Below are positions 3,810 to 34,232 of a stretch of 37,277 nt of DNA, piece by piece. Made by a program: the position numbers and the translations under genes. Positions within the stretch are counted from its first letter, which is position 1; each line of letters opens with the position of its first letter. This DNA is from a virus. The DNA lies in the IMG/VR virus record IMGVR_UViG_3300042542_005376, positions 1 through 37,277 of that record. The stretch is one strand, 5' to 3'. Under the pieces are notes generated by a model. That model was given only the letters and a program-made list of their open reading frames with translations. It was not told the origin of the DNA and searched no databases.

Positions 3810-3812
3810 GTT

Positions 3813-4108: not shown

Positions 4109-4122
4109 TTATCTGATTTTAA

Positions 4123-4554: not shown

Positions 4555-4557
4555 TAG

Positions 4558-4563: not shown

Positions 4564-4582
4564 GGCATAAGCCGCGCTACAG

Positions 4583-5353: not shown

Positions 5354-5354
5354 C

Positions 5355-6041
5355 ATGGACGTTCGTCACGTTATTTCTTCAATGTGTTTGTCCGTTGATG
5401 ATGATCCGGCGGCACAAAACTTTTCGCACTGGCCTTTAGTGTGTAAAGCGGTTTTATACGCGTCTAAAGTTCGTTTAGATGTTGATAATCCTTTTGCGAA
5501 TGCTTTCCCAGGCGACCACTATCGTCTGATTTCTGGACTGCTTTCTGTTCTTGATAATGAAGGAGGTGTTCGTAATATCGTAGATATCGGTACACACTAC
5601 GGTACTGGAACACGTGTAATGCTTGACTTTGCGCCCGATGCAAAAGTCACAACATTTGACCTTACTGGTTGGGACGAGTTCCCTGTAACATATTTAACTT
5701 GTTCTGACTTTGTTAGTAATGGCGGTCGGCTCACTCAATATTTAGAGAATCTTCAGCACGCTGATGTTTTCGAGCGACATAAACAACTGTTTATTGATGC
5801 AGATTTCATTATGTGTGATGGACCTAAAGACGGCAGCTTTGAACGTGAATTTATCAAAAAGCTATCAACACTTTCTTTCCCTAAGAAACGTCGTTTCCTG
5901 TTCTTAGACGATATTCGCTTTGAGTCTGAGATACCGCTGTGGCGATTGATCCAGAGCCCTAAGGTTGATCTCACCTCTTTTGGGCACTTTTCTGGTTCTG
6001 GGTTAGTTGATATCAGCGACGGTTTAGTTTTGTTTGATTGA
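5355..6041 (+). CDS. Class I SAM-dependent methyltransferase-like protein
   Basis: A 228-residue protein with a Rossmann pattern. Motif I is IVDIGTHYGTGTR (about 75-87), strand 2 is VTTFDLTG, strand 4 is ADFIMCDGPKDG (about 149-160) and strand 5 is RRFLFLDDIR. The DIG and CDGPKDG motifs fit the same broad class as the protein at 2731-3444, though the sequences are clearly different. It starts one base after the glycosyltransferase stop, so the two are probably coupled and may act on the same glycan. The substrate is inference only. Confidence 0.75.
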   Translation: MDVRHVISSMCLSVDDDPAAQNFSHWPLVCKAVLYASKVRLDVDNPFANAFPGDHYRLISGLLSVLDNEGGVRNIVDIGTHYGTGTRVMLDFAPDAKVTTFDLTGWDEFPVTYLTCSDFVSNGGRLTQYLENLQHADVFERHKQLFIDADFIMCDGPKDGSFEREFIKKLSTLSFPKKRRFLFLDDIRFESEIPLWRLIQSPKVDLTSFGHFSGSGLVDISDGLVLFD

Positions 6042-6047
6042 GTACAA

Positions 6048-6410
6048 ATGGATAAATTTTTAGAAGAGTTTCCGTGCACAGGTTGTTCCTTGTGCTGCAA
6101 GAACTTGAGTAGTATCCACGAGGACGCTCTTAAGTTCCCTAAGGGTTCGATTGTGCGAATTGCCGCAGAGACGTTTCCCTTTAAATGGGATTCAACCGGC
6201 GCCTGTGAAAAGTTAAAAGACGACAAGTGCTCTATTTACACTGGCCGACCTTTACTGTGCAACGTGAAGGCTTTATCGCTTCTATGGGCTAGAGAGCTCA
6301 AATGTGACCCACTCGATATCTACGCTTTAACAGCTACTAGCTGTAATAATCTTATTGATGAAGCAGGCTTGGATCCTGAGTTTAAAATTAATCCAGGTCA
6401 GTTTAAGTAG
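6048..6410 (+). CDS. YkgJ-like CxxCxxCC protein
   Basis: A 120-residue protein with the hallmark of the YkgJ/UPF0153 zinc- or iron-binding family: CTGCSLCC at residues 10-17, then CEKLKDDKCSIYTGRPLLC, where the spacing of the later Cys and the IY..RP..C motif are standard. Members probably hold a metal or Fe-S cluster and have unknown chemistry. It follows the methyltransferase after 6 nt and is followed at once by the Cro-like regulator, so it is part of the same transcript. Confidence 0.85.
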   Translation: MDKFLEEFPCTGCSLCCKNLSSIHEDALKFPKGSIVRIAAETFPFKWDSTGACEKLKDDKCSIYTGRPLLCNVKALSLLWARELKCDPLDIYALTATSCNNLIDEAGLDPEFKINPGQFK

Positions 6411-9839: not shown

Positions 9840-9917
9840 GAAGGTAGATCGCAACCTACCTTCTAACCCGTTCTGGCTTCGTGGGATATCGGGAGTATTG
9901 AGTAACTCCTTATCCAA
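9840..9917. terminator. Structured convergent intergenic region
   Basis: Between convergent genes lies a hairpin GAAGGTAG (9840-9847) with CTACCTTC (9856-9863). Next comes a nested structure in which CCCGTT, GGATA and GGAGT pair with ACTCC, TATCC and AACGGG. There is no clear T-run on either strand, so a bidirectional terminator is only probable. Confidence 0.4.
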
Positions 9918-10992
9918 CGGGCTCCATTAACGCTAGCACGTTTAGTACAGGCGTTCTAAATATACCCATGAAGTAGTCATTCACACCCATGGACATCACT
10001 AGTTCTTCGTCATCAACAAAACAACCAAAAGGCAGTATGCAAGCCGGTTGATTTGAAATGTCGTTTCCGACTGGATCTGTCCACGTGACAAGATCATCGT
10101 TTGTCGAACCTATGAATAAAGGCTCATCAGTCATACGAGTGATCTTTGTTAAGTCTTTGTCTAAACAATATGCACCTAGTGCATAGACTAAATAGGGCCT
10201 GCGGTCTAGTTCATGACACATAAATTTCCAGTGGTAGAAAACAAGCCACTCGTCTTCTACAAGAACTGGAGCGGTTGAGTTAAAGGTCGGGTGGTCTGAG
10301 GTGACCTTTTTCAAGCAATCTGAGTTAATTGTCTTATCAGGCTGGTTTGGTGTCTTGATTACGATCGGTTTAGTCGAATAAAGCAATCGAAGATCAGGGC
10401 CGTCTGAAAAGAAGCACCAGTTTTTTTCTGCTCTTCCGTCAGCGTGGTTATTCCCTATAGGCGGGTAGAACTTATCAACTAAGCTTCCAAATTCATTCAC
10501 AACCCCGGTACATACTTTGGGGCTCTTACACATTTTGTGCTTAGTCGCATCCCATTTAGTTGCGTATGTGCTTGTTACAAACTGACAAAGTAAATTATCG
10601 TCTGGAGAAATAAAGATTCTCGGGTCCTCATAACTTAGTTTATGGGGTGTGTTAATAAGTTTTCGAGGAGCAACAATAGTGTCGTCAGTAAGAAGTTGAC
10701 CAATCCAGATATCTGTAGGTGTGTTGTTATAGTAAAAATATTTCATATCGTGCCTAAACACAAAATGTTCTGGCTGTGATCGCCACGCAATTAAAGTTGC
10801 CCCACGGTGCTTAATAACGCAAGGACTAAAGTTAGCAAAGCTATCTTTTGGCAGTCCTGAGTTTATGCGTGTAAACACACCTCCAATCTCGTGGGCCTGA
10901 TCAAAAACTGAAGGGAAACCAGATTTACTCGGTGTGAATGCACGCTGAATGACTCGATTGTTGTACGTGCGATAGCGATGAAATTGTGTCAC
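9910..10992 (-). CDS. GH130-like five-bladed beta-propeller (glycoside phosphorylase/hydrolase family)
   Basis: A 360-residue protein with the repeated beta-strand layout of the GH130/GH43 propellers. Signature-like stretches are NFSPCVIKHRGATLIAWR, YEDPRIFISPDD, AEKNWCFFSD, NSTAPVLVEDEWLVFYHW and QPACILPFGCFVDDEELVMS. EDPR and the EKN.. and VFYH blocks fit family GH130 (mannoside phosphorylases), where Asp/Glu and His residues bind sugar and phosphate. Activity is not certain. It starts with GTG overlapping the stop of the GT4 gene (GTGA), so one transcript makes both, which supports a joint role with a glycan. Confidence 0.75.
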   Translation of the reverse strand: MTQFHRYRTYNNRVIQRAFTPSKSGFPSVFDQAHEIGGVFTRINSGLPKDSFANFSPCVIKHRGATLIAWRSQPEHFVFRHDMKYFYYNNTPTDIWIGQLLTDDTIVAPRKLINTPHKLSYEDPRIFISPDDNLLCQFVTSTYATKWDATKHKMCKSPKVCTGVVNEFGSLVDKFYPPIGNNHADGRAEKNWCFFSDGPDLRLLYSTKPIVIKTPNQPDKTINSDCLKKVTSDHPTFNSTAPVLVEDEWLVFYHWKFMCHELDRRPYLVYALGAYCLDKDLTKITRMTDEPLFIGSTNDDLVTWTDPVGNDISNQPACILPFGCFVDDEELVMSMGVNDYFMGIFRTPVLNVLALMEPVG

Positions 10993-12161
10993 TTGCTCAG
11001 CTCCTCCATTGCTTTGTTAAAGGCTTCAGCGATTCGATCCCAGCGGTACGCAGGGTTTTGTGTGACTTTATAGCAGGACTCAGCGATGTCGTCGTAGAAA
11101 CCTTTGTCCTCGTACAACTTAGTAAGCATGGCTGCCATATCCATCACGTCTACGATTCCTCGCTCGACTCCTAGATCCTTGTCATAAATCCAAGCAGCTA
11201 TATCCGCTAAGAGAGCACTCTTCTTCCAGATGTCACTGAATGACGTGTGGTTTGGCAGTACAAGTGGTTTTTTGCAGGAAGCGTGTTCAAAAGACACAAG
11301 ACCCCACCCTTCTCCATTTGCTGTATTAATTCCGACGTCACAGGCATTATAGATTTTATTTAGTAGATCATCAGGAGGTGCGTTTGTGTAATCAATATTC
11401 GTTGATGTCATTACGAGGCGCCCATCAGCTTGAAGTCCTTTCCGCTTCATCTCTGTGTCAAAAATTGCCCTGACGTCCCAACCGAGATCTTTTTCACTCA
11501 TGTGTAGATACAGGAGCGTGTTCGGTTTATCGACGGCAAATTCTGCAAACGCCTTGATCGTTAGATCAATTTGCTTGCGAGGTTGGTTACGGTTGGCGTT
11601 AAGGACAATAAATTTATCTTCCGGCAGTCTCAACATTCGTCGAGCTTCGTTTTGATCCATTGGGAAAAACTTCCCTTGATCCAGACCGTGCGGCACTACG
11701 CCAAATAATTTTGGTTGAACCCCTTGAGACATCAAACGATGTGCTTGTTCAACAGAGAAGGTGATCGCAAAGTCCCAGTCCTTGATATACGACAACATAG
11801 AATTAACATAATATGCTGAGTCAACTGGAAAGTACGCTATGAACTTGAATTTAAGTGAGTCTTTGAGCAGGTGCACCCGCTCCCAAACTTGATTAACGAT
11901 CCAGATGTCGTTAAGACAGATAATAAAGTCAGGTTTTTCTTCTTCAACCACCCGTGGCAGGCGACCGATACCAAAGCGATCGCCAGGGTTCTGTGTCCCA
12001 GCCGGGTAAACTTTATATGGTAGATCGTGCGGATCACCTGCGTAGTTAATGCCAAACACTACAATTTCATGTGTGTTAGCTAGGTGCTCTAAGATACTGT
12101 GTGTAACTCTAGCGAAACCAGTATTAGAAAGAATGTCGCCGTACCAGAGAATTTTTGCCAT
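10989..12161 (-). CDS. GT4-type (GT-B fold) glycosyltransferase
   Basis: A 390-residue protein with two Rossmann halves. The N-terminal half begins ILWYGDILSNTGFARVTHS. The C-terminal half has FIVLNANRNQPRKQIDLTIK at about 190-209, typical for the donor-binding entry of group 1 glycosyltransferases, and DVGINTANGEGWGLVSFEHA, where the EGWGLVSFE motif contains the EX7E-type residues. It would use a nucleotide sugar in the cytoplasm. The gene is first in a two-gene minus-strand operon and shares a divergent promoter region with the terminase gene. Its acceptor is unknown. Confidence 0.9.
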   Translation of the reverse strand: MAKILWYGDILSNTGFARVTHSILEHLANTHEIVVFGINYAGDPHDLPYKVYPAGTQNPGDRFGIGRLPRVVEEEKPDFIICLNDIWIVNQVWERVHLLKDSLKFKFIAYFPVDSAYYVNSMLSYIKDWDFAITFSVEQAHRLMSQGVQPKLFGVVPHGLDQGKFFPMDQNEARRMLRLPEDKFIVLNANRNQPRKQIDLTIKAFAEFAVDKPNTLLYLHMSEKDLGWDVRAIFDTEMKRKGLQADGRLVMTSTNIDYTNAPPDDLLNKIYNACDVGINTANGEGWGLVSFEHASCKKPLVLPNHTSFSDIWKKSALLADIAAWIYDKDLGVERGIVDVMDMAAMLTKLYEDKGFYDDIAESCYKVTQNPAYRWDRIAEAFNKAMEELSK

Positions 12162-12209: not shown

Positions 12210-13733
12210 ATGCCGAGTAGAGAAACTTTTGCATATCGTCGTGCACTTAAGCTACGTGCAGCAAAGGCTATAGACGGAGAGAGTGCTGCGATTGATAATA
12301 TCTTTTTAAGAGCTTCTGATGACTTCCATACGTTCTGTACGATTATGGATAAGGCGCCGGCCACCCACATGCTTGAGTGGCATAAGCACTTAATTACTGG
12401 TGAAAGCAACAGGTACTTACTGGATATCGCTGGTCCCAATTTAGATATCCTTGCGCCCAGGGGTAGCGCAAAGAGCACAGTACTTAATATGTTTACTGCT
12501 TGGATTATTGGAAGACATACAACAGCAGGTTTACCTCTTCAGATTATTTACTGTTCATATAACATCGCCACGGCCATACCAAAGAGTCGGATTATTAAGC
12601 AGATTATCGACTCATCTACATACCGGAAAATTTTTCCGAAAGTTCAGCTCCGCTCTGGTATGCAGTCGGATATTGGTTGGAGTATTGATTTTGATTATGC
12701 AGGCATTAGCCGTGTGGGTGACGAAGAATTTACGCTTCGTGCAGCAGGCCTTCGAGGCTCTATTACATCAAAACGTGCTCATCTTGTTATCGTAGATGAC
12801 CCTATCAAGTCTAGTACTGATATTAAGAACCCTACTATTAGAGAAGAAATGAATAATAACTGGAGCTCTGTGATCGCCCCGATTATTTTTGAAGGTGGTC
12901 GAGCTATTTGCTTAGGCACCCGATTCCACCCACTAGATATCCATAAAACGATGTTTGTTCCCGATAAGGGGTGGAAACAAGTTCAGCAGGAGGCCCTTAC
13001 TTACGATGACGACGGGGAGCCTGTGAGCTATTGGCCAGAACAATGGTCTGTTGATTACTTGCTAGGTCAGAAAGAACTTGACCCTGTTGCTTTTGCTTTC
13101 CAGTATCAGCAACAACCTGTAATGACATCGGATTTAGTCCTATCTCCAGATCTACTTGTTAAAGGGGATGTGGTTACAGAGTTCGACAGCCTCGCAGTAG
13201 GCATCGACTTATCGGCTAGTAAAAACGAGACTTCTGATTACACTGCGTTTGTACTCGGCGGTAGATTAAAGGATAAATACTATATTATTGACGCTCATCA
13301 GGTGCGCTCTATCGGTAACCTTGAGAAGATAGACCTTCTATGCAAAATGCTTGTTGAGTGGGGCATCTTGCAAGAAGATAATGATGGTAAATACTTTCCG
13401 ACCTACTCCACTTGCTCACTAGTCGTCGAGTCCGTGGCTTACCAAGCATCCCTAGCCGCTGACCTTAGACGTGTGATGCTTAACGAATGGGGGCTGGGTA
13501 ATCTTCATATTCACGAAGTCAAAGGCTTTCGAGGCGATAAGATCTCCAGATTTAGAGGCACTCTTGGGCTTTTGGAAAATAAAAAAGTCGTATTCAACCG
13601 CTATCGAAAGTTCGATATTTTATTCGATCAGCTGATCAACATAGGTGCTACTTCGCACGACGACTTACTAGACGCTTATACGCACTTAGTATGCTTCTTA
13701 CAGCGTCGCGGAAACTTTGAGATGGAGTACTGA
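12210..13733 (+). CDS. terL: Terminase large subunit
   Basis: A 507-residue DNA-packaging motor. The ATPase has Walker A APRGSAKST at residues 82-90, a Walker B-type strand LVIVDDPI at about 192-199, and a coupling region GRAICLGTRFHP near 230-241. The nuclease domain begins with GIDLSASKNETSDYT near 331, whose Asp333 is the first metal ligand, and later includes LVVESVAYQ and HDDLLDAYTHL, which supply the other acidic residues. It cuts concatemeric DNA and drives it through the portal. No small terminase is obvious nearby. It starts behind its own promoter and its TGA overlaps the next ATG. Confidence 0.95.
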   Translation: MPSRETFAYRRALKLRAAKAIDGESAAIDNIFLRASDDFHTFCTIMDKAPATHMLEWHKHLITGESNRYLLDIAGPNLDILAPRGSAKSTVLNMFTAWIIGRHTTAGLPLQIIYCSYNIATAIPKSRIIKQIIDSSTYRKIFPKVQLRSGMQSDIGWSIDFDYAGISRVGDEEFTLRAAGLRGSITSKRAHLVIVDDPIKSSTDIKNPTIREEMNNNWSSVIAPIIFEGGRAICLGTRFHPLDIHKTMFVPDKGWKQVQQEALTYDDDGEPVSYWPEQWSVDYLLGQKELDPVAFAFQYQQQPVMTSDLVLSPDLLVKGDVVTEFDSLAVGIDLSASKNETSDYTAFVLGGRLKDKYYIIDAHQVRSIGNLEKIDLLCKMLVEWGILQEDNDGKYFPTYSTCSLVVESVAYQASLAADLRRVMLNEWGLGNLHIHEVKGFRGDKISRFRGTLGLLENKKVVFNRYRKFDILFDQLINIGATSHDDLLDAYTHLVCFLQRRGNFEMEY

Positions 13734-14620
13734 TGCACGACTTCAATTTTCTAGTGTTTGTAGCGGCTCATGATCCGTTATCTAAGTTTGATGAGCTACT
13801 GAAAACCCTCCGTGGGTACGAAGAAATCCCTGGCGTAAAAGACATCTTTATTCATATAGATGCCGCACATGAAACAGATAAGGAGATATTAATTGAACTC
13901 TTAAAACCTAACGTTAGTTTTAATTCTTTAAGTGTTATCGTAGCTCCTGAGTCCTACGAAGGGTACGCTTTAACTTGGGCGCATAAAGGTCTTTTAAGGG
14001 AAGCTGTCTTAAACAAATATTATGACTTTTACGTGTATACAGAGAATGATATTTTGTTTGATAGTGAAAACTTTTTGTACTGGTACTTATACAAAGATAA
14101 GTTGAAGTCGTTAAATCTAGAGCCGGGTTTTTGTCGTTACGAAACTTATGGTTCTAAGCTTGTGCCTTTTGATAACCACAGGGTATGGCAGCTCAATAGT
14201 TTGACTAAGAATGTTTGGGGGGATCGTCCGTATAAAGTCGATTGCTATCTGACGCCTCTTGATGATTTTGTTGGTTTTGTATCTCTGGGAAATCCCTACA
14301 TGGGCATGATGATCCTGGATCAAGAGATGGCAGAACAGTATGTAAATTCAACAAGTTTTGATCCTGTAAATAGTTTTAGTCTTACCCAGTTTCGTTGCTG
14401 GCCGTTGGCTGACAGGAGTTCTATGGGGCTAGCTTTTGAAAATTTACGAACCGATCAAGAGCACCGCCGGGTGGTGCCTGTTGTTCAGGTGGGAGGAGCG
14501 CTTCAAATAGCTCCCTGCGGCTTGGTAGAACACTGTGACACAAAGTACAGTAAAGAGTTAGAAGAAAAATTAGGGTCTGTTCTCGATATCTCACAGATGT
14601 TTGGTTATGCTTCTTACTGA
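13733..14620 (+). CDS. GT-A-like glycosyltransferase
   Basis: A 295-residue protein that overlaps the terminase stop by one base (TGATG). It opens like a GT-A enzyme with FLVFVAAHDPLSKFDELLKT, has FIHIDAAHE at about 39-47, and YVYTENDILFDSENFLYW at about 101-118, where END-I-F stands in the place of the DxD metal motif. The C-terminal part contains aromatic patches of the kind that bind sugars. No exact family is named. A sugar-modifying gene wedged between terminase and portal suggests that virion components could be glycosylated, but this is inference. Confidence 0.7.
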   Translation: MHDFNFLVFVAAHDPLSKFDELLKTLRGYEEIPGVKDIFIHIDAAHETDKEILIELLKPNVSFNSLSVIVAPESYEGYALTWAHKGLLREAVLNKYYDFYVYTENDILFDSENFLYWYLYKDKLKSLNLEPGFCRYETYGSKLVPFDNHRVWQLNSLTKNVWGDRPYKVDCYLTPLDDFVGFVSLGNPYMGMMILDQEMAEQYVNSTSFDPVNSFSLTQFRCWPLADRSSMGLAFENLRTDQEHRRVVPVVQVGGALQIAPCGLVEHCDTKYSKELEEKLGSVLDISQMFGYASY

Positions 14621-14903
14621 TACAGACAAAGTAAAAAGTCTGTCCGATCTAGGTCTAAAAGTTTTTCAAGTTATGTACGATCCGGTTAATCACCCAAACC
14701 ACTACACGCAAGGTTCTATTGAAGTGATTGACTTTATGGAATCTTGCTTAACCCGAGAAGAGTTTTGCGGCGGGTGCAAAATGAACGTCCTGAAGTATGT
14801 CTCGCGTGAGAAATTTAAGAACGGTACAGAGGATCTAAAAAAAGCCCGGTGGTATTTAGACCGTTTAATCTCCTATTTGGAAGATGAGGTCAGAACGCGC
14901 TAA
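14607..14903 (+). CDS. DUF3310-domain protein
   Basis: A protein of 98 residues from ATG 14607 (TTG 14601 gives 100). The block PVNHPNHYTQGSIEVIDFME followed by KMNVLKYVSREKFKNGTEDL and KARWYLDRLISYLE is the DUF3310 signature. This domain is found in phages, including T7 gp1.7, where it is linked to nucleotide kinase activity. A role in phage nucleotide metabolism is therefore plausible but not certain for a stand-alone copy. Its start lies inside the previous gene. Confidence 0.85.
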   Translation: MLLTDTDKVKSLSDLGLKVFQVMYDPVNHPNHYTQGSIEVIDFMESCLTREEFCGGCKMNVLKYVSREKFKNGTEDLKKARWYLDRLISYLEDEVRTR

Positions 14904-14926
14904 GATAAACCAAACAGTCTCTTTAT

Positions 14927-15211
14927 ATGGATATTCGAGCTTTTGGCTCCGTATATGGGCAGACGTCGATGCTGCCTTATGCGAGCGGTTTTGGGTGGGC
15001 GCCTGGCCTAGGTCGTAAAAATTTTCCTACGTGTCGCGCAATTTTCATTGAATCAAAGTCCAACAACAGTAAAGATTATTTAACCGTAGAGCTTTCCGAT
15101 GCTCCTGGCCAGCAATCCACGGCTCTTAACCTAGAGGGAAATACGCTTATACCTATTGCTTGTACTGCGCTTATTAGCGGCTCTGTAAACGGCGTTTTTG
15201 TACTGTACTAA
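14927..15211 (+). CDS. Small beta-rich virion-type protein
   Basis: A 94-residue protein of likely beta structure. The N-terminal half is rich in Gly and aromatic residues (FGSVYGQTSMLPYASGFGW) and the C-terminal half has alternating hydrophobic strands (DYLTVELSDAPGQ, then LIPIACTALISGSVNGVFVL). No family is recognised. TAAGAT 20 nt upstream could be a -10 box. Its TAA overlaps the next ATG (TAATG). Its place between terminase and portal suggests a minor structural part. Confidence 0.6.
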   Translation: MDIRAFGSVYGQTSMLPYASGFGWAPGLGRKNFPTCRAIFIESKSNNSKDYLTVELSDAPGQQSTALNLEGNTLIPIACTALISGSVNGVFVLY

Positions 15212-15501
15212 TGGATCCTTACGCACAAGCTGCTTTTGGTTTTGCTAAAGCATACCAAATGAACATGCAAGCCGCTGATGAGCAGCGGCGAGCTAATCAG
15301 CCGTCCACTAATGCTTTTGCGCAAGGGGTGACCGACGAAGAAACAGACTATCGCTTCTCCCCAACACCACAAGCACCCGTGCCTCCTACGGAGGAGTACA
15401 CAGGTGTTCAGTCTGAAGGCGGTACTGTTTTAGATCAGTCAAACGGCACGCTGCTCTCTCGCGCAAAGCAAAAAGCTTCTAGGTACCTCCAAGGAGCATA
15501 A
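15211..15501 (+). CDS. Small Gln/Ala-rich protein
   Basis: A 96-residue polar, low-complexity protein with an N-terminal Ala-rich helix (YAQAAFGFAKAYQMNMQAAD), a Pro/Thr-rich middle and a basic C-terminal helix (RAKQKASRYLQGA). It overlaps the previous stop by one base. Its composition matches the internal-virion-type proteins of the window, but it lacks the C-terminal tag. The function is unknown. Confidence 0.6.
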   Translation: MDPYAQAAFGFAKAYQMNMQAADEQRRANQPSTNAFAQGVTDEETDYRFSPTPQAPVPPTEEYTGVQSEGGTVLDQSNGTLLSRAKQKASRYLQGA

Positions 15502-15510
15502 TTGAGTTAA

Positions 15511-15536
15511 TATAGTGAGACCCTTAAAGTCTCACT
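15511..15536 (+). promoter_or_regulatory. TATAGT -10-like box and hairpin directly before GTG start
   Basis: TATAGT (15511-15516) is 20 nt before the GTG at 15537. A perfect 8-bp hairpin, AGTGAGAC (15514-15521) with GTCTCACT (15529-15536), ends at the base before the start codon. An AAGGAG at 15491-15496 is 40 nt away. The stem may be an operator or may control translation. Confidence 0.4.
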
Positions 15537-16352
15537 GTGCTCTTAGACTGTTTTACTTACTTTAATGAGCGTGAGCTGCTTGAGCTTCGAATTCGGACTC
15601 TTGAAGATTACGTTGACGGATTTTTAATTACAGATGCAAATCGAACTCACGCCACAGGTGAGTTAAAGCCTTTCACGTGTTTAGAAACTATTCGTGAGCT
15701 TGGGCTGCCTGAAGAAAAAATTCAAGTTATGCACGTAGAGCTGCCCTCTATGGAGGAAGCTCCGGATCCTTGGATTCGTGAAAGGGGCCAGAGGGACGCA
15801 CTAGGCGTGGGTCTTCACCTGATGGATGACGATGATATCTTTATCTGTTCTGATTGCGATGAAATTACAAACCCTAGTAAGTTACCTGACGTAATTGAAG
15901 CTGTACGTGAGCATAAGGATAAAGTAGTTCGTCTTTCGATGTCGATGCACTACGGGAGGGCTGATCGACAACTTGTATCGCCAGAAGGTGAGTTATTTGA
16001 CTGGCGTTGCGGCGTAGTGAGCACAGTGGGACAACTTAAGGATTTTGGTACGTTGTCTTCTATGCGCTCTACACAAAATAATTTTTATGTAGGCAGTCGA
16101 GACGCAGGCTGGCATTTCTCGTGGATGGGCGATTCGGATAGACGTCTAACAAAACTGAAATCTATTGCCGAAGCTTACATTTGGGATCGGCCAGAGGTTC
16201 AAGAACTATGTAAAGAGTTCGAGCCTGATGAGGGTAATACAGACATGCTGGGGCGACCAGACCATTTAATTACCTCCTACCCTGTCGAGGATTTACCCGA
16301 GGAAGCGGTTAAACTGGAAAGAGTTAGAAAGTATTTGCTTCCGGATGGCTAA
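15537..16352 (+). CDS. GT17-type glycosyltransferase
   Basis: A 271-residue protein matching glycosyltransferase family 17. The opening LLDCFTYFNERELLELRIR with VDGFLITDANRTHATGELKP is the family signature (DCF.yf.E..lLe.R, then VD.F.i.....T..G..K). WIRERGQRDAL follows near 80-90 and ICSDCDEIT near 103-111 holds the acidic metal-binding residues. GWHFSWMG near 199-206 is also typical. The eukaryotic founding member adds N-acetylglucosamine to N-glycans; here the donor and acceptor are unknown. The start is GTG, and no ATG lies nearby. Its end overlaps the small basic gene at 16345. Confidence 0.9.
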   Translation: MLLDCFTYFNERELLELRIRTLEDYVDGFLITDANRTHATGELKPFTCLETIRELGLPEEKIQVMHVELPSMEEAPDPWIRERGQRDALGVGLHLMDDDDIFICSDCDEITNPSKLPDVIEAVREHKDKVVRLSMSMHYGRADRQLVSPEGELFDWRCGVVSTVGQLKDFGTLSSMRSTQNNFYVGSRDAGWHFSWMGDSDRRLTKLKSIAEAYIWDRPEVQELCKEFEPDEGNTDMLGRPDHLITSYPVEDLPEEAVKLERVRKYLLPDG

Positions 16353-21142: not shown

Positions 21143-22491
21143 ATGTTTATCGATAGCTGAATGCTCAGATTGTCGCCTAGTTAAGCAATTAACTAGTGAA
21201 AATCGGGTGAATTCAGGGAAGCCCTAACGTAGAGACGAGGGTAATCCTGAGCGAAGCCAAAGGTACACCTTTGGAACGTGCAGAGACTACCGGAGAGGTT
21301 TAGCCCTCTTAATAACCGGCTAGAGCGCCCGACACCCCACGTGGGTGAAGAGATAGTCCAGACCTCGGGGAAACCTGAGACAATCTGAATGACTTTCCGA
21401 AGATTTTAGGTGCGGAGCTGTACCGTCCTCATCCGGCGTATATCGTCGAGATGGCGGCTGAGCCCGTGGTTGTTCACGACTTCTCGAAACAACCCGGCCA
21501 GACTGTGCAGCTGGACCGTTACCGCTTCTTCGGTAATCCTGGCTCTAAGGAATCCCGCGAGCGTACTGCTGAGCAGACCATTGGTACTGCCAACAGCCGC
21601 AATATCGTGAAGGATAAGGTGCTGGTGACTCTTCGCGAGTACACCGGTCCTGCTGACCCGAGTGATCCCACTCAGCCCAGCACCTTCAAGATTGCGCGTG
21701 AGACCCTGATTACCGCCCAGCGTCTGCTGCTGGACACCGGTAACCTCACCACCTTCCACCAATCCATCGGCAGCCTGACTCTGCTCGACGACTATCGTCG
21801 TTGGCGCGACCGGGTGTTCATCAACGAACTTCTGAAGGCTGTTTCCAAGGGTCAGGCTTCTGACACCCAAGGCGGTTACTACTTCCCTGGTGATCTCGCC
21901 ACCGGTGCTCTGACCTACACCAACGCCGAGCAAGCTAAGTTCGACGTTAAGGATGACCTGCTGCGCGTGGTGAAGAGCCTGCGTAAGCGGAACACTCCTA
22001 CCTTCCAGGATGGTTTCTATCGCTGCGTTTGCGATCCGACCTTCCTGATGCACCTGCGTCAGAACAGCGACTTCCGTGAAGTTGCTCGTTATCCTGGCAA
22101 CGGGCAGATCAACCCCCTCATGTCCGGTATGCAGCCCAACGCTGCACTGTACATGGGTCAAGGCTTCGGTCAGGCTACCTTCGTGGCCGGCGAGCCGATC
22201 ATGCCCACCGGCTTCGTGTTTGAAGGCGTGCGCTTCTTCGAAAGCACCAACATGCCTACTCAAACTCAGAGCGCGACCATCGCCTCCAGCACCGCTAACT
22301 ACAACGCTGCTGTCGGTATCTTCTTCGGTCCTCAGGCCGTTGGTGTTGGCATCGGTGGCAACAATGCCCAGGTGCTCCTCAACAACAACGACGATTTCAG
22401 CCGCTTTATCATGATGATTTGGAGCCTGTACGCAGGTTTCGAACTCCTGAACGCTGACTTCGTCACCGTTGGTTACTCTTTCGACGCTTGA
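21143..22491 (+). CDS. Probable major capsid protein (split by intron)
   Basis: The 3' exon is open from about 21382 to 22491. Its reading frame (NDFPKILGAELYRPHPAYIV, then MAAEPVVVHDF) continues upstream of the ATG at 21451, so that ATG is internal. The best model joins ATG TTT ATC GAT (21143-21154) to AAT GAC TTT (from 21388), giving about 371 residues. A TTG start at 21112 with a slightly different 3' splice (after 21379) would give 384 residues reading SSELIDVYRYNLNDFPK. The protein is mixed alpha/beta, Gly/Ala-rich late, with C-ending codons that mark very high expression. Position after the scaffold and the codon bias support a major capsid protein; the family is not proven. Confidence 0.75.
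21155..21387 (+). other. Group I intron (ribozyme, no internal ORF)
   Basis: A self-splicing core is readable. P1 joins exon CGAT plus AG (21151-21156) to TTGTCG (21170-21175), with the required U-G at the splice site. P2 is CTAGTTAA-GCAA-TTAACTAG (21177-21196). P3 is TCGGG (21203) with CCCGA (21328), P4 TCAGG (21213) with CCTGA (21246), P6 CCAAAGG with CCTTTGG (21257-21274), P7 GACTA (21285) with TAGTC (21354), and P8 CACCC with GGGTG (21333-21347). P9 is CTCGGG-GAAA-CCTGAG (21364-21379). CAGA (21359) pairs with TCTG, ending in the terminal G at 21387. The exon AAT can pair with ATT in the guide. The 3' end could instead be 21379. Confidence 0.85.
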
Positions 22492-22505
22492 GGAGGTAAC
22501 TAACA

Positions 22506-23384
22506 ATGACGATCAACCCTAACCAGATCTCAGTTTCCAAGATTTATCCTGGAAACTACACGAATGTTCTTCGTTACTGGCACGAAGAAAAAACCATGCA
22601 GTTTGAGAACGCCAATGGCGTTCCTACGAACTACACCAACCAACCCGTCGGCGGCCCTGTCGGCGTGGTGTTCCGTCCCGGTTGGATTGCTCAGCAAGCC
22701 ATCGGTTACGTTGACCTGAGCTATCAGGCACTGGGTACCAACAACCAGCTGGATTATTACACCCAGCCTTATGGTTCTGGTCAGAACGCTGCTAACCAGC
22801 CGTTCCTGAATGCCAGCGTGATCATCCCCTCCCCCGACTACCATAAGGATGTTCGGGCGGATATCACCAACGGTATCACTGCTCCCTCTGGTGCATTTGT
22901 GTACCGCACTTCGCTCCGTGTGGACGGCGGTGATGTGGTCAGCTCCGGCGTTGCAGGTGGTTCTGCGACCCCTCAGCTGACCCTGATCCCTGCGGTCGGC
23001 CAAGGTCTCCGCAACACCACCACCGTGGTGTCTGGTCAGTTCGGTACCTCGATCACCGGCTCCAACAGCCGTATTGCTAACGGTAGCGTTGCTTCTACCA
23101 ACATCATCAACAGCAGCAGCCTGTCTGCTCTGACTGCTGATACTCAGTGGAAGCTGTTTACCACTACCAATCTCGGCGGTGCTGCCGCTTCTGGTCTGGC
23201 TCAAGGCTCGGGTATCTATGATCCTCGTGCTGGTGCTGGCAAACTGTCTGGCAAAAACAAAGCACTCGCTATTTGCGAAGTTTGCTGGATCGTTCCTGAT
23301 GCTCCTCCGGAGCGTGCAGACCTGGCTCTGCAGCCCGGCGGTATCGTGGAGTCCACCGCTTACACCTCCACCTCTCCTTCCTGA
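22506..23384 (+). CDS. Highly expressed virion protein, capsid partner
   Basis: A 292-residue protein with an excellent ribosome-binding site (AGGAGGT 8 nt before ATG), 14 nt after the capsid stop. Codon choice is as strongly biased to C endings as the capsid gene, so the product is abundant. It is Gly/Asn/Ser/Thr-rich and beta-like (RPGWIAQQAIGYVDLSYQ near 57-74, then many TT/SS/NG turns). A decoration, head-vertex or fibre role is possible; I lean to a capsid decoration or minor capsid protein from its position. A strong terminator follows the gene. Confidence 0.65.
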   Translation: MTINPNQISVSKIYPGNYTNVLRYWHEEKTMQFENANGVPTNYTNQPVGGPVGVVFRPGWIAQQAIGYVDLSYQALGTNNQLDYYTQPYGSGQNAANQPFLNASVIIPSPDYHKDVRADITNGITAPSGAFVYRTSLRVDGGDVVSSGVAGGSATPQLTLIPAVGQGLRNTTTVVSGQFGTSITGSNSRIANGSVASTNIINSSSLSALTADTQWKLFTTTNLGGAAASGLAQGSGIYDPRAGAGKLSGKNKALAICEVCWIVPDAPPERADLALQPGGIVESTAYTSTSPS

Positions 23385-27449: not shown

Positions 27450-28007
27450 GTGGCATCGACAAGCACCAACAAGCAACCATTAATGGTTGACCGCCCTTTC
27501 TTCCGTGGGGCAAAGATTAACAGTGGTACCACTGTGATTGCTGATTCGAGCAATCCTGATTTTGGTGACCTGATTCAACTTGTTCGCGTTGGCGATATTC
27601 CTTCTGAGGACGGCGCACTTGTTGAGGATATCTTTTTAGTTTCTTCTGAAGGGTATCCTGATAATGGTGGTGTGAGGGCCGCTGCTTTTGGTGTTTATGT
27701 CTACGCACCTAACCAAGCTGCACCTTCCACTTCAACTCCGCTTCTAGTCGGAAAGTTTCAGGTCGGCTTGTCTGGATCCACTGAAGGTGTGATTCAACGT
27801 ATTGAGCTACCTGCCACAGTCGCACCCACGCCGCAAACGGGAAACACTAATCTCATCTATCCAATCGAGCGTGGTAAATCTGAAGCTATGTACCTTGAGA
27901 AAGGTTACATTCTTTGTATCGGTTATCTAGGTAATGGCCCAGCCGCTGTGTCCGGCGGCTTGAGTTCTTCTGGTGTATTCATAATGGCACAGGGCGGGTT
28001 CTATTGA
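27450..28007 (+). CDS. Beta-rich virion protein
   Basis: A 185-residue protein starting at GTG. It is mainly beta structure, with alternating strands such as GDLIQLVRVGDIPSEDG, ALVEDIFLVSSEGYP and EAMYLEKGYILCIGYLG, and it lacks transmembrane segments. It could be a fibre, decoration or receptor-binding protein. The next gene, also virion-like, starts 3 nt downstream, so the two are coupled. No family is recognised. Confidence 0.6.
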   Translation: MASTSTNKQPLMVDRPFFRGAKINSGTTVIADSSNPDFGDLIQLVRVGDIPSEDGALVEDIFLVSSEGYPDNGGVRAAAFGVYVYAPNQAAPSTSTPLLVGKFQVGLSGSTEGVIQRIELPATVAPTPQTGNTNLIYPIERGKSEAMYLEKGYILCIGYLGNGPAAVSGGLSSSGVFIMAQGGFY

Positions 28008-28010: not shown

Positions 28011-29555
28011 ATGGCTCGAAAGAAAGGTTCGGATGACTTTGGCTGGCAAGGTCATCAGCCAAAGAAATCTAAGTTCGGCTTTTCTTCGTTTGAGGGAGCT
28101 AGCAAGGCGTATCAGCTTGATACTCCTATGCCATTTAAAAGAAAGTTTAGACCTGACTTTAACTTAAAAGATTTTAGTATTTTATTTGATTACAACTACG
28201 CGTCTATGTGGACGCGTTGGCGTAGAGGATATGAGTTGTATATGTATGCTAATCAGGCATACGTAGGATTAAATTATTCGTTTCGTTATTGGACAACCGG
28301 TACTGTTGGGATCGGGGCAGCTTTGCCCGGCATCTGTTACATGTACCCGTCCATGAGTCAGGATATGGCCATGCGGATGGTGGCTATACGACCTAGAGAT
28401 TCGTTTAACTTCTTGGATTTTGGATATGCGATTAAGTCAGTAACCAAAACAAGTGACACTGTTTACGCCATTGAGCTTTCGAGTAACTTCGGACCTCCTA
28501 TTTCTTTTTTCACAGGCGAAATTCTTTCAGATAGATTTAAATCAGACGGCACGGAAAAAACTACTTACAACAACTACACGGTTATCGGTGTGGGTAACGG
28601 CACTACCTCACTGACACCTAGCTTTGCACCTATATTTAACAGCCTATTTATCTCACTAGAACCCAGTAAAAGTTGGTCTGTTATAAATAACGAGACTCTC
28701 TCTACGCCAGCAGCATTACCTACGCCTGGTGATTATTTGACAACTGAAATGCGTTTCAGCTGTAACTGTCCTGATTATTTAGCTAGAGAAGATTTTAACT
28801 TGTATGAGTATAGTTTAAAGCGTCGCTACCCTTACACACTTCCTCAAGACGCCAAGCCAGGCACCTACGACGTAGGGACAGAGTTTTCATCTACTCGTGT
28901 TTCTCCTTCTCGTGATTATCCAGGATTTAGTCGTGACTTCGGTTTCCTGTATGTAAAGAACTTACTTAATCTACCTAGATACACTGACAATGAGACGGTA
29001 TACTCTGATCCTAACTTAACTTATTTTGCTCCCAGATGGTGTAAGCATATTTATGCTTCTTTTTGGGACATGCAGAATCGTTTTGGAGCAGACACATTTT
29101 CTCAAGCGTGGTTAGCACAACCTAGTGACGAGCCTTTAGACAACAGGTATCGAGAAGAGTTTGAAATTAGTCTGGCAAAACAGACAACTTTTGAGAAGCG
29201 TCAGCAACGACTTCGTTGGTGGGAGAAATACTCGCCTTCTCGTGAGACTGTGCCAGTGCATATGATGTATCCCGATATGCACCCTCCTTTAATCAAAGCA
29301 CTTAACTTTGACACATTAGCTTCTGGAACAACCACGGCAATGACGCCAAGTGGGTTCGAGATGTTTACTATTGATCAGTACAATCCGTTCGCTCCTCCAG
29401 ATCCTGCTGTTACTCCTAAATATGATGGCGGTACATACAGTAATGGAGTACTCGTTAGCGGAGCGACCTTGATTTATGATGGCGGACGATACTCTAATGG
29501 TGTGTTGATACCTTATCCTTCGTACCCCTCTACCATTAACGGCGGCACTTACTGA
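28011..29555 (+). CDS. Virion protein with SWIM-like CxC/CxH cluster and C-terminal repeats
   Basis: A 514-residue protein. A basic N-terminus (ARKKGSDDFGWQGHQPKKSK) precedes a large beta-rich region. The cluster CNCPDY (Cys251, Cys253) and WCKHIYASFWD (Cys344, His346) has the Cys-x-Cys and Cys-x-His pairs of a SWIM zinc site, separated by about 90 residues. The C-terminus carries a tandem repeat, YDGGTYSNGVLVSG and then YDGGRYSNGVLIPYP, followed by a partial copy. Such repeats occur in fibre or tail proteins. It lies in a structural operon with the genes at 27450 and 29559. Confidence 0.6.
   Translation: MARKKGSDDFGWQGHQPKKSKFGFSSFEGASKAYQLDTPMPFKRKFRPDFNLKDFSILFDYNYASMWTRWRRGYELYMYANQAYVGLNYSFRYWTTGTVGIGAALPGICYMYPSMSQDMAMRMVAIRPRDSFNFLDFGYAIKSVTKTSDTVYAIELSSNFGPPISFFTGEILSDRFKSDGTEKTTYNNYTVIGVGNGTTSLTPSFAPIFNSLFISLEPSKSWSVINNETLSTPAALPTPGDYLTTEMRFSCNCPDYLAREDFNLYEYSLKRRYPYTLPQDAKPGTYDVGTEFSSTRVSPSRDYPGFSRDFGFLYVKNLLNLPRYTDNETVYSDPNLTYFAPRWCKHIYASFWDMQNRFGADTFSQAWLAQPSDEPLDNRYREEFEISLAKQTTFEKRQQRLRWWEKYSPSRETVPVHMMYPDMHPPLIKALNFDTLASGTTTAMTPSGFEMFTIDQYNPFAPPDPAVTPKYDGGTYSNGVLVSGATLIYDGGRYSNGVLIPYPSYPSTINGGTY
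29421..29512 (+). repeat. Tandem YDGGxYSNGVL coding repeat
   Basis: Two copies of a unit coding YDGG(T/R)YSNGVL differ at several synonymous sites. They start at 29421 and 29478. A shortened version (INGGTY) ends the protein. Confidence 0.7.
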
Positions 29556-29558: not shown

Positions 29559-30098
29559 ATGGCTTCAACACCAGTTATTCTGCTTACAAAGCGTTCTGGT
29601 AACTCATCAGACCGCCCTAATACTGCGACAGTTCAAGCTGGTGAGACAGCTATGAGCTTTGGTGCAGCTGATCCTGGATTGTATTTTAAGGATTCAGCTG
29701 GATCTATCCGAAAGTTTGGTTCGAATCATTACGGAACTACAGCACCAAATTCGAGTCCAAACGGGTCAACAGGTAATTCGGTTGGAGAAACATGGGTCGA
29801 TTCTTCAACATCTCAGTACTATCTTCGAGTATGGACCGGAGCCGGTTGGCAGAAGATAGGCGCTGGTTTTGCGGACACAGCGACAAGTGCAAATACAGCT
29901 GTAACTGCAAACAACGCACTAACTGCAAATAGCGCACTAACTGCAAATAGCGCAACCGTGGCAAACTCAGCGGTTGTCGCAAGTGGAGTCGCCGTAGTTA
30001 CTTCGCTGCCGACTGCCTATACCGGAGGTTTGGTTTATTTAAATGCCGGAGCAAGTGGCTTGTATGTCTCTGCAAACGGAGGGTGGATACTCACATAG
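29559..30098 (+). CDS. Tail-fibre-like protein with hexapeptide repeats
   Basis: A 179-residue protein. Residues 1-100 resemble the N-terminal region of phage fibre proteins (ASTPVILLTKRSGNSSDRPN, then GLYFKDSAGSIRKFG, then WVDSSTSQYYLRVWTGAGW). Residues 108-143 contain five hexapeptide repeats of the form N(T/S/N)A(V/L/T)(T/V)A, which could form a trimeric stalk. A small C-terminal beta domain ends the protein. It starts 3 nt after the previous gene and its last 8 bases overlap the convergent Dps-like gene. A fibre or appendage role is likely. Confidence 0.65.
   Translation: MASTPVILLTKRSGNSSDRPNTATVQAGETAMSFGAADPGLYFKDSAGSIRKFGSNHYGTTAPNSSPNGSTGNSVGETWVDSSTSQYYLRVWTGAGWQKIGAGFADTATSANTAVTANNALTANSALTANSATVANSAVVASGVAVVTSLPTAYTGGLVYLNAGASGLYVSANGGWILT
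29886..29990 (+). repeat. 18-nt tandem repeats coding hexapeptides
   Basis: About five copies of an 18-nt unit (for example GCACTAACTGCAAATAGC) encode NTAVTA, NNALTA, NSALTA, NSATVA and NSAVVA. Slippage could change the copy number. Confidence 0.75.
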
Positions 30099-30633
30099 AC
30101 CCACGGAGGGTCGCTTTTAACATCCAGGCACCTTTAAATAGGTTGCCACAGATAGTAGCAGCAAAGTTTTCAACATCAGGAGCACCCACTTCTTTAGCTG
30201 TATCGACTAAATCTTTAGCCATCATCGCCCCAGCTTCAAGATTCTTTGTATACAGAGTCAGGCCCTCGCGAGCGTCGTAGGACTTAACCGAAGGAAACTT
30301 CTTAAATGCGTCAAAAAGCCCACACTGGCACATGGGCATCAAATAATCCATGCTGCGAACAAGCTCGGCCATGACGTCAAAATCGGCTACATGCTGTTCG
30401 TATTGTTCTTTAAGGAATGCGTGGACCCCAAAGAAATTAGAACACTCGACGTTCAGGTGCAGTAAGTGAGCCTGGATGTTTAACTGATACAAGTAAGAAG
30501 AAAAGGAGACCATCTGATAAGCCAGGTTATCAGGAGAGGCCTCCTTTGTAATAATCACCTCCTCCCTAAGGATTTCTTTCGTAGGAGCTTCAGAAGCGTT
30601 TTGAAAGATATCAGCTAAAGAGGAAGTGTTCAT
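30091..30633 (-). CDS. Dps-like ferritin family protein
   Basis: A 180-residue four-helix-bundle protein. The segment AHLLHLNVECSNFFGVHAFL then YEQHVADFDVMAELVRSM is the Dps ferroxidase region. By alignment to E. coli Dps, His59, His71, Asp86 and Glu90 fall at H51, H63, D78 and E82, while D67 is replaced by Lys75. Such proteins form 12-mers that oxidise and store iron with peroxide and can coat DNA. A phage copy could protect DNA during infection. It is the second gene of a minus-strand pair with the HTH protein at 30642. The N-terminal 30 residues are polar and may bind DNA. Confidence 0.85.
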   Translation of the reverse strand: MNTSSLADIFQNASEAPTKEILREEVIITKEASPDNLAYQMVSFSSYLYQLNIQAHLLHLNVECSNFFGVHAFLKEQYEQHVADFDVMAELVRSMDYLMPMCQCGLFDAFKKFPSVKSYDAREGLTLYTKNLEAGAMMAKDLVDTAKEVGAPDVENFAATICGNLFKGAWMLKATLRGSM

Positions 30634-30641
30634 TGTTGGTA

Positions 30642-30893
30642 TCAGACGGCGCAGGCCTCGCTTTCTTCTACTTTAGCCTCTTCAGAGCCAGAGCTCAGGT
30701 AAGCCTCAAGAGCATCCTTATTGATGCGATAAAGCGACTTGACACCGTTGGGCTGCAGATTTACAAAAATGCCCTTGGGCCAACCACCGGGCTGGTTGGA
30801 CTCGGTCAGCATAATACGCTTACGTACAAAGCCTGCGGAGCAGTTCAGGAGCTCAGCGGTCTGAGCGATGGTCAAAAGCCGTGCGGAATCCAT
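30642..30893 (-). CDS. HTH_17/excisionase-type DNA-binding protein
   Basis: An 83-residue protein with a MerR-like winged HTH, LTIAQTAELLNCSAGFVRKR then WPKG and KSLYRINKDALEAYLSSG, which is the usual layout of the excisionase/AlpA domain. It likely binds a nearby operator. It starts a minus-strand unit with the Dps-like gene 8 nt downstream, so it may regulate it. Upstream, 30894-31027 holds two promoter regions but no gene. Confidence 0.85.
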   Translation of the reverse strand: MDSARLLTIAQTAELLNCSAGFVRKRIMLTESNQPGGWPKGIFVNLQPNGVKSLYRINKDALEAYLSSGSEEAKVEESEACAV

Positions 30894-30997
30894 TTAATTT
30901 GGCGTTGTTGATGACGACAACGAAAGGAGGTTAGCAGGAATCTTCATGAAGAAAGTCTGTGAAAGCGACTTTTAGATTGATTTAACTTTTGACCCTG

Positions 30998-31003
30998 TAG
31001 ACT
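30998..31003 (+). promoter_or_regulatory. -10-like element TAGACT
   Basis: TAGACT lies 24 nt upstream of the GTG at 31028 and overlaps TTGACCCTGTA, which recurs near 670. GAGACTCACGAGAC follows. Confidence 0.5.
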
Positions 31004-31027
31004 GAAGAGACTCACGAGACAGCTGCC

Positions 31028-31276
31028 GTGGCCATCCGTATCGCAGGCGAGAAGTTTGCTGGATACAACCAGCCGCGCCGTGACTCGGATGGAGGCAAGA
31101 AGTTTGCTGTAGCCGCCAAAGAAGGGGACCAGGTTCGTCTAGTTAGGTTTGGTGACCCCAATATGACTATCAAAAAACACATCCCAGAACGCCGTGAGAA
31201 CTTCAGAGCAAGGCATAACTGCGATAACCCTGGAAGTAAATTAAAAGCACGCTATTGGGCTTGTAAGAGCTGGTGA
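31028..31276 (+). CDS. Small basic protein common in cyanophages
   Basis: An 82-residue protein starting at GTG. The stretch KKFAVAAKEGDQVRLVRFGD followed by NMTIKKHIPERRENFRARHN and CDNPGSKLKARYWACKSW is a conserved family (DUF5872-like) that I know from T4-like and other cyanophages. Its function is unknown. The two Cys residues and many Arg/Lys residues suggest nucleic acid or zinc binding. It has its own TAGACT element. Confidence 0.75.
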   Translation: MAIRIAGEKFAGYNQPRRDSDGGKKFAVAAKEGDQVRLVRFGDPNMTIKKHIPERRENFRARHNCDNPGSKLKARYWACKSW

Positions 31277-31283
31277 GCTCTAT

Positions 31284-31301
31284 ATCAAATTATAATTTGA
31301 T
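31284..31301. promoter_or_regulatory. Perfect 18-bp palindrome containing TATAAT
   Basis: ATCAAATTATAATTTGAT is its own reverse complement and contains TATAAT at 31291-31296. It lies 2 nt before a TAGACT element (31303-31308). It could be an operator bound by a dimeric repressor. Confidence 0.45.
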
Positions 31302-31616: not shown

Positions 31617-32372
31617 GTGTCGTACACCACTGAGCAGTTAAAAGAGATTGCCCGAAAAAAGGCTCGTGATTTTGGTGTCAATGAAGATATTTTTCTGAAG
31701 TTAGTTCAGAGTGAATCAAGCTGGAATCCTCGTGCTACGAGTAAAGCGGGCGCACAAGGGCTTGTGCAGCTGATGCCTGCAACAGCTAGAGGTTTAGGTG
31801 TTAGCAACCCATATGATCCTGTTCAGAGTCTGACGGGTGGTGCTCGTTATTTAGCTCAGCAACTTAAACGCTTTGGTAGTTACGACAAAGCTCTTGCCGC
31901 GTACAACGCTGGACCTGGAAACGTCGAACGCTATGGTGGAATACCTCCTTTTAAAGAAACTCAAAACTACGTCAAGAAAATACTTGGATCCACAGGGGGA
32001 GGGGAGGCGCAGCCACGCGCTGCAGCTGCAGTCACACAGGAGAAGGCTCCTGTTGATAAGGGAAGTCGCCTTCTAAACACTTTTATAGATCTCCTTGGAG
32101 CGACAGGCGGCCGGATTTTTGGACCTCAGTCTGCCGCACCGAGACCTGAGATGACGAGTTATGCAGAGCAAGAGTATAACCCCGTGGAGGACGAGTTAAA
32201 TATTGTATTAGATGCTTATAGTAATAAACAAAAACAAGAAGAGTACGCTAAGGCTCTTGCAGAAGCAAGTAAGCGTGAGTTAGAAAGTAATGTTGCTGCT
32301 GCAGAGCAAGCTAAAGCTCAGTTGTTTGCACAAGCTATTAACTCTTTCACGACACCTAGCTCCGTAATTTAA
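31617..32372 (+). CDS. Lytic transglycosylase (SLT domain) with C-terminal tag
   Basis: A 251-residue protein. Residues 5-120 match the SLT lytic transglycosylase domain: [17 protein letters not shown] with catalytic Glu33, then [17 protein letters not shown] and [16 protein letters not shown]. It would cleave the glycan strands of peptidoglycan, either as a virion enzyme that opens a path for DNA or in lysis. No signal peptide is present. The C-terminal half is Ala/Gln/Glu-rich, ends in an amphipathic helix and then SFTTPSSVI, a variant of the SFxTPKSTI tag that ends three other proteins. This favours a virion location. It has its own TAGACT element. Confidence 0.9.
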
Positions 32373-33389: not shown

Positions 33390-33757
33390 TGGCTCAGTTA
33401 CCACGCTCACCATTAGAGCGGCGGGTTGAGTCTTACATGAACAGGAGAGGGACTCGAACTCGGAGAGAAGCTCGCTCGTTCCGAATGGCGGGTGAACTTT
33501 TTAATGTTGAGGCTAGGGAAAAAGCTCGTAACGTTGAGCAAGAATCACGTCGTCGGCTACAAGCAGAGCGCGTGGTGGGCGTAGGTTTTGGTGAAAAAGA
33601 TAATTACGGACCCGATAATAGTTGGGATACACCTGATGTTCTCAGGTATACACCCGACCCAGCGTACTATAAAGGTCACAAAACTTACGCACCCCTAGTT
33701 GGTAGTCCTCGCGGGGTGGCAGATAGTAAACAAAGCCAAAGACCTTCGTATCTATAG
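33389..33757 (+). CDS. Basic hypothetical protein
   Basis: A 122-residue protein that overlaps the previous stop by one base. The N-terminal 60 residues are very Arg-rich and helical (ERRVESYMNRRGTRTRREAR, then NVEQESRRRLQAERVV), and the C-terminal half is Gly/Pro/Tyr-rich. It may bind nucleic acid or a virion partner. The last 116 nt overlap, on the opposite strand, the end of the adenine-methyltransferase-like gene. Confidence 0.6.
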   Translation: MAQLPRSPLERRVESYMNRRGTRTRREARSFRMAGELFNVEAREKARNVEQESRRRLQAERVVGVGFGEKDNYGPDNSWDTPDVLRYTPDPAYYKGHKTYAPLVGSPRGVADSKQSQRPSYL

Positions 33758-34232
33758 GCTTTAGATCTTTTTCTTTTAAGAGATAGGGCTTATCTTTAAG
33801 AACGCAAAGAGGGAAGTCAAACCCAATACGCTGCGTTACGAGTAGAGCGACTTCTGTAGAAGTCAGGAATATTACAGCTTGTTCGAACTCATTCCTTAGC
33901 CATTTATGATAAGCAAGCTCAAGCCACACGCGCTGAGCCGACTTCTTAAATCGATAGTTCTTTTGAAATAATCGAGTATCTTTTGGCTGCTCGTCTCCAT
34001 TCAAAATACTTCTAGGAGGGAACAGGTACACATTTTTTGCTCTCCACTCCTGATTTAAACCGTTTTTGTGCCATGAGAAATATTTTTTAGCCTGAACAAC
34101 TTGATTAGCCTGCTCACTAGAAGCTGGGTCTAGTTCAATCTCCCCACCGAAAAGATAAGCCGTGGTAGCTATGAGTTCTGGAGGAGATATAAAGTCGTCG
34201 TCAGAGAATGAGACTGTTTGAAAGTTCATCAA
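33642..34232 (-). CDS. DNA N6-adenine methyltransferase-like protein (degenerate motif)
   Basis: A 196-residue protein resembling the phage Dam-type DNA N6-adenine methyltransferases. IELDPASSEQANQVVQAKKY and YFSWHKNGLNQEW match the family's DP.AS..N and DGL...W blocks, and the C-terminal half has hydrophobic strands. The usual NPPY or DPPY catalytic motif appears as NVYLFPPRS, so the Tyr and the Asn/Asp are replaced and activity is doubtful. It is the last gene of a minus-strand block with DNA-binding proteins. Its 116-nt 3' end overlaps the convergent plus-strand gene. It starts within the end of the gene upstream. Confidence 0.65.
   Translation of the reverse strand: MMNFQTVSFSDDDFISPPELIATTAYLFGGEIELDPASSEQANQVVQAKKYFSWHKNGLNQEWRAKNVYLFPPRSILNGDEQPKDTRLFQKNYRFKKSAQRVWLELAYHKWLRNEFEQAVIFLTSTEVALLVTQRIGFDFPLCVLKDKPYLLKEKDLKPIDTKVFGFVYYLPPREDYQLGVRKFCDLYSTLGRVYT

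Follow-up and report, generated by a model that had tools for sequence, protein, structure and literature searches.

The locus described here raises the question of whether a Dps-like ferritin encoded by a cyanophage, together with a linked HTH protein, works as a classical Dps or handles iron in another way. The gene is located in the window, that is, the whole stretch of DNA that was analysed, a 37,277-base IMG/VR virus record. It contains a structural module from a relative of Synechococcus phage S-EIV1; identity to that phage is 54% for the terminase and 68.5% for the major capsid protein. A megablast search with window positions 10001-33000 against phage records gave no match. Both ORFs are present where the original prediction had placed them, and the genes of the locus are organised as follows:

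28011-29555, plus strand: late gene without a family match
29559-30098, plus strand: minor tail protein-like gene
30091-30633, minus strand: dps-like gene for a 180-aa miniferritin (ORF list, Pfam, PHROG and fold prediction)
30642-30893, minus strand: HTH gene for an 83-aa HTH_17/excisionase-like protein (ORF, Pfam and NCBIfam scores)
31617-32372, plus strand: lytic transglycosylase-type gene

The dps-like and HTH genes are inserted, on the opposite strand, between late tail and lysis-type genes of the plus strand. The HTH gene lies upstream of dps, with 8 bp between its stop and the dps start, and at its 3′ end dps shares 8 bp with the convergent gene 29559-30098. Loci in which dps is located between tail genes and the lytic transglycosylase-type gene, as in the window, are referred to as tail-linked.

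The 180-aa protein matches the Pfam family Ferritin PF00210 (2.8e-9, 37.5 bits, cut-off 24.5) and phrog_3636, described as 'DNA binding protein' (1.5e-19). The AF2 monomer model (mean pLDDT 83.7, pTM 0.77) possesses four long helices and a short BC helix, at about the following residues:

34-61: helix A
67-94: helix B
103-109: helix BC
121-149: helix C
152-177: helix D

The original prediction depended on a four-helix Dps bundle, and the structure prediction gives one, similar to the bundle with BC helix of canonical bacterial Dps (E. coli, Listeria; nearest solved chains C. jejuni 3kwo and P. aeruginosa PA0962 8ff9). The top Foldseek matches were Dps-type or Dps-like (8ff9, 2.1e-6; 3kwo, 1.1e-5), with 14-26% identity to bacterial Dps chains among the matches listed. 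Nearly all of the 50 VIA-align matches listed were Dps or Dps-like as well (Z 19.2-21.8, rows less than one Z unit apart being tied). By sequence, a profile of 36 family members matches C. jejuni 3kwo (1.8e-11), PA0962, and the HP-NAP group. Scores against the NCBIfam Dps equivalogs were under the cut-offs (NF006975, 18.2 versus 114 bits; NF052461, 17.7 versus 300 bits). Taken together, the profile matches and the predicted model demonstrate a Dps subunit fold for the 180-aa protein. Evidence for the assignment as a phage Dps-like ferritin with a linked HTH partner comes from the ORFs, Pfam, PHROG, the gene neighbourhood, AF2, Foldseek, and VIA-align.

In the canonical ferroxidase centre, His51, His63, and Asp/Glu67 are provided by one subunit, and Asp78 and Glu82 by the other. 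Alignment with E. coli Dps placed His59, His71, Asp86, and Glu90 of the window protein at His51, His63, Asp78, and Glu82, as the original prediction had proposed, and Lys75 at Asp67. Four of the five canonical ligand positions are kept, and the full set is absent due to the Lys at position 67. The corresponding codons are:

30457-30459, minus strand: His59, His51 position, site A ligand
30421-30423, minus strand: His71, His63 position, site B ligand
30409-30411, minus strand: Lys75, Asp/Glu67 position, site B; K/G/Q/R/N in 122/122 sequences
30391-30393, minus strand: His81, replacing a core Leu/Ile/Met/Val of bacterial Dps; 120/122
30376-30378, minus strand: Asp86, Asp78 position, site A ligand
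30364-30366, minus strand: Glu90, Glu82 position, bridging ligand; 122/122

The ligand roles at sites A and B follow passages of PMC6675082, according to which canonical Dps uses an acidic residue 67 at site B.

What the original prediction noted in passing, the Lys at position 67, proved to be a signature of the whole family. It was found in 73 of 81 sequences (the window and the best 80 of 160 relatives), and none of 122 distinct family sequences has an acidic residue at position 75 (K 97, G 20, Q 2, R 2, N 1). Because position 75 is Gly in twenty of these, a salt bridge made by the Lys would not be essential. The 122 sequences comprise the best 80 loci or fewer per scan (of 160, 153, and 213 relatives) plus loci anchored on the neighbouring gene, and are therefore a sample; L184, in which a frameshift breaks up the dps ORF, was left out. 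Each of His59, His71, and Asp86 occurs in 119/122. Invariant residues outside the ferroxidase site include Q54, N61, E63, Y78, N131, E133, K140, and D153. Thirty-three loci served as source of bacterial control Dps; seven gave no row, and five of the 26 alignable ones belonged to the phage family and were left out, resulting in 21 controls. In these, position 67 is Asp or Glu in 20/21 (one Met), and position 81 is Leu, Ile, Met, or Val in 20/21 (one Gln). Since position 81 of the controls continues the hydrophobic residues spaced by 3-4 along helix B, His81 would point towards the core of the bundle. The absence of an acidic residue 67 and the core His81 distinguish the window protein from canonical Dps, as does the lack of Lys and Arg in residues 1-18. 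The gene is under purifying selection (dN 0.082 and dS 2.2 between the window and L002; median dN/dS 0.12 in 847 pairs).

With cyanobacteria as hosts, a His-type ferroxidase centre was another candidate. The His-type cyanobacterial Dps NpDps4, TeDpsA, and TlDps1 also have a non-acidic position 67, according to passages of PMC6675082; in NpDps4 it is an Asn that binds no metal, and iron is still oxidised. However, position 78 of the phage family is Asp in 119/122 and Asn in three sequences, not His, and, unlike the His-type proteins with their His164, neither helix D of the window protein (152-177) nor the family consensus has any His. The His-type centre was rejected on account of positions 78 and 164. 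A Lys in place of an iron ligand is also found in ferritin L chains, where, as stated in passages of PMC11396501, Lys62 abolishes the site and forms a salt bridge with Glu107. This likeness is an analogy only, as ferritin L chains belong to another branch of the family and their site lies within one subunit, whereas the Dps site lies between two.

Three distinct sequences from six contigs (L048, L049, and L127; from the best 80 loci or fewer per scan and the neighbour-anchored loci) carry Asn56, Ser59, Ser71, and Asn86, so that both His ligands and the Asp are gone. Trp170 and Lys167 are missing as well. The three sequences form one clade with support 99 in a quick tree. A predicted Dps fold is kept (pLDDT 78.8; best Foldseek match 8ff9, 9.6e-5), with a prediction that leans on the shared alignment. 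Despite the lost ferroxidase ligands, substitution patterns indicate that the protein of this clade is still under purifying selection (L048 versus L127, pN 0.18 and pS 0.78; L048 versus L049, dN 0.016 and dS 0.235). As the clade is still constrained, ferroxidation cannot be the function everywhere.

S-EIV1 encodes a member of the same family, AHV82153, annotated in GenBank as 'DNA-binding ferritin-like protein', with 45.6% identity over residues 29-177 and a likewise non-acidic residue at site 67 (Gly). It was the only match in a tblastn search of 50,697 phage records with the window protein (E 0.01). Unlike in the window, dps of S-EIV1 adjoins a sulfate adenylyltransferase gene at a great distance from the tail genes, has no HTH partner, and encodes a product with a Pro/Lys-rich N-terminus. 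Among the best 80 of 160 relatives, 58 loci are tail-linked and 22 lie in an S-EIV1-like early region. The early-region dps is found directly before the sulfate adenylyltransferase gene in S-EIV1 and L059 (L059 5453-6997; L082 12456-13922), an uncommon neighbour from sulfur metabolism, and five of the 79 new loci among the best 80 of 213 relatives also hold a sulfate adenylyltransferase gene.

Dps proteins often bind DNA via a Lys-rich N-terminus, and the original prediction had suggested that the N-terminal residues of the window protein bind DNA. This suggestion found no support in the sequence, since residues 1-18 contain neither Lys nor Arg and the net charge before helix A is -3. The N-terminal net charge is -2 to -8 in 47/47 distinct tail-linked sequences. 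The early-region relatives have a Lys/Pro-rich N-terminus (e.g. KPKGPARSK) with a net charge of 0 to +4 in 60 distinct sequences, and fifteen more sequences in neither group range from -2 to +3. Judging from the acidic tails of one branch versus the Lys/Pro-rich tails of the other, the two branches may differ in DNA binding, with tail charge being a weak predictor, as an E. coli-like control Dps gives 0 by the same measure.

The 83-aa HTH protein scores just under the cut-offs of HTH_17 PF12728 (26.3 versus 27 bits) and of TIGR01764 'excise' (26.5 versus 28.8 bits), and is therefore described as HTH_17/excisionase-like, not as a formal member. Thus, of the proposed pairing with an HTH_17 protein, the pairing holds and the formal membership does not. 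An HTH gene is present beside dps in 57/58 tail-linked loci among the best 80 of 160 relatives, the remaining one (L037) being cut by the contig end. No HTH gene was found at the 22 early-region loci of the same set, nor detected at 79 further new dps loci (best 80 of 213 relatives). A strict association of HTH and dps genes was rejected, given the early-region loci without HTH and locus L125, which has HTH without dps. The two genes are probably co-transcribed. Upstream of the HTH gene, two candidate elements were found:

30928-30936, minus strand: extended -10-like element TGCTAACCT, candidate promoter
30903-30922, no strand assigned: inverted repeat CGTTGT-N8-ACAACG, between the -10-like element and the HTH start, candidate operator

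The candidate extended -10 element TGCTANNNT is present in 18/26 upstream regions. A search of 29900-31300 for promoters and terminators yielded no signal beyond chance (one promoter-like sequence versus 1.5 expected). In 100 shuffles, the inverted repeat was never matched by chance, with a pattern that was written after the repeat was seen, and its exact form occurs in 7/26 upstream regions; for both reasons it is a weak candidate for an operator. Divergent from the HTH gene, an 82-aa ORF (31028-31276, plus strand; phrog_7595, unknown function) is among the best conserved neighbours of the dps locus, with 59-100% identity. In S-EIV1, a 73-aa ORF whose N-terminus looks HTH-like by eye (AHV82239; 16315-16536, minus strand) lies on the opposite strand behind a tail fibre-like gene. 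It occupies the site where relatives of the window carry HTH and dps; the S-EIV1 dps sits elsewhere.

The window also encodes a weak Dam-like DNA methyltransferase (33642-34232, minus strand; PF05869 9.8e-5 but under the cut-off, phrog_111 3.6e-10), which is kept in relatives. Many glycosyltransferase- and methyltransferase-like ORFs lie scattered among the structural genes at 2731-6410, 9910-12161, and 13733-16352, some with Methyltransf_24 and Glycos_transf_2 matches and others judged by eye. A tRNA-Leu(taa) gene is located at 4036-4108. At 21406-22506, a long antisense ORF (366 aa, TTG) covers the capsid gene. The GenBank record of S-EIV1 (KJ410740.1, 60784-62010) has an antisense hypothetical ORF and a short fragment annotated over the major capsid region, which tblastn places at 60934-61986, and the deposited annotation at this gene is probably wrong.

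Phage Dps genes are already known. According to passages of PMC6669764 and PMC8008677, they are carried by Lactobacillus phages and by gut 'Gratiaviridae' and others, respectively, with a suggested role in oxidative stress relief; these proteins were unmatched in the above tblastn search of 50,697 phage records (E 0.01). On the altered ferroxidase site of this cyanophage family, no publication was found in the PMC literature, which covers few subscription journals. With a ligand missing across the family and the site dismantled in one branch, these proteins of viruses infecting aquatic cyanobacteria probably differ from bacterial Dps in their handling of iron, or serve another purpose. The explanation we favour, held with about even confidence, is an intracellular iron-binding Dps cage of the phage with one usable site and probably slowed ferroxidase activity, made from its own leftward transcript with the HTH protein. 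The phage would produce the miniferritin inside the infected cyanobacterium, and dps would be expressed leftward together with the HTH protein, which probably controls the two-gene unit. The chains would assemble into a cage, which in Dps is a dodecamer, and metal site A (His59, Asp86′, Glu90′) would still bind Fe(II). By analogy with Lys62 of ferritin L chains, Lys75 would fill or repel site B. With site A kept and site B so altered, the cage would bind and slowly oxidise iron, and would limit Fenton damage late in infection, rather than act as a fast two-iron peroxidase.

A working classical Dps, which oxidises iron with peroxide, binds DNA, and shields phage or host DNA, was the original prediction. 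The predicted Dps fold, the four of five ligands present, and the early-region relatives with Lys/Pro-rich N-termini (net 0 to +4, 60 distinct sequences) would fit it, but none of 122 sequences has an acidic position 67, the window tail lacks Lys and Arg in residues 1-18, all 47 tail-linked sequences have acidic tails, and one clade has no ferroxidase ligands, so that we consider it unlikely. Since this ligand-less branch exists, the main rival is a cage or scaffold that has become independent of ferroxidation, such as a late structural, assembly, or storage protein, in which the ligands would be partly relict or structural. The purifying selection and predicted Dps fold in that clade speak for such a role, as do the placement of the gene between late tail and lysis-type genes and the eight residues outside the ferroxidase site that are invariant in 122 sequences. 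Nonetheless, His59, His71, and Asp86 are retained in 119/122, above the expectation for a relict site, and the gene is antisense to the late genes and has an early-region position in related phages; we consider a ferroxidation-free cage unlikely as well.

Alternatively, dps could be a host gene acquired only recently (a moron or auxiliary metabolic gene) and present in some phages but not in others; its orientation opposite to the neighbours, the two alternative genomic positions, and L125 would suggest this. Anchoring on the neighbour gene 27450-28007 gave 55 loci, 35 of them spanning both flanks; dps was present in 34/35 of these, with L125 as the exception, and the HTH gene in 35/35. Exactly one dps copy was found in 17/19 long records, and none in L125 and L140. 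Protein distances for dps follow those for HTH and for three neighbours (r 0.70-0.90, n=52, 0/999 permutations as high), which argues for co-divergence. In a quick tree, the phage sequences fall on one side of a long branch (support 100) from the 21 bacterial Dps. A scan of 84,980 species genomes with two peptide patterns revealed only three loci and no bacterial family member; all three are on phage-looking contigs with phage-like neighbours as judged by eye, and a PF00210 search in the same three genomes added one more family member, L303, in one of them. Recent capture is therefore disfavoured by the phage-like context of the three loci and the 34/35 spanning contigs, and we regard it as very unlikely. 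The phage has carried dps for a long time.

Returning to the iron-binding cage with one usable site, a further proposal, which we make tentatively and consider rather doubtful, is that this widespread cyanophage lineage turned Dps into an 'L-type' cage, with site B lost in the common ancestor (acid to Lys/Gly), a core His, and one branch that gave up the whole centre while its protein remained conserved. If so, it would work by metal binding, a new His81 site, or assembly, and not by peroxide-driven iron oxidation. The common view of phage Dps is one of ordinary protection from peroxide, whereas the ferroxidase centre is consistently altered throughout this large and coherent phage family. Its natural branch, with the site gone yet selection persisting, makes the role of viral Dps directly testable through a contrast of three types, represented by the window, the ligand-less clade, and S-EIV1 with its Lys/Pro-rich tail. 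An answer would also bear on iron handling in infected picocyanobacteria.
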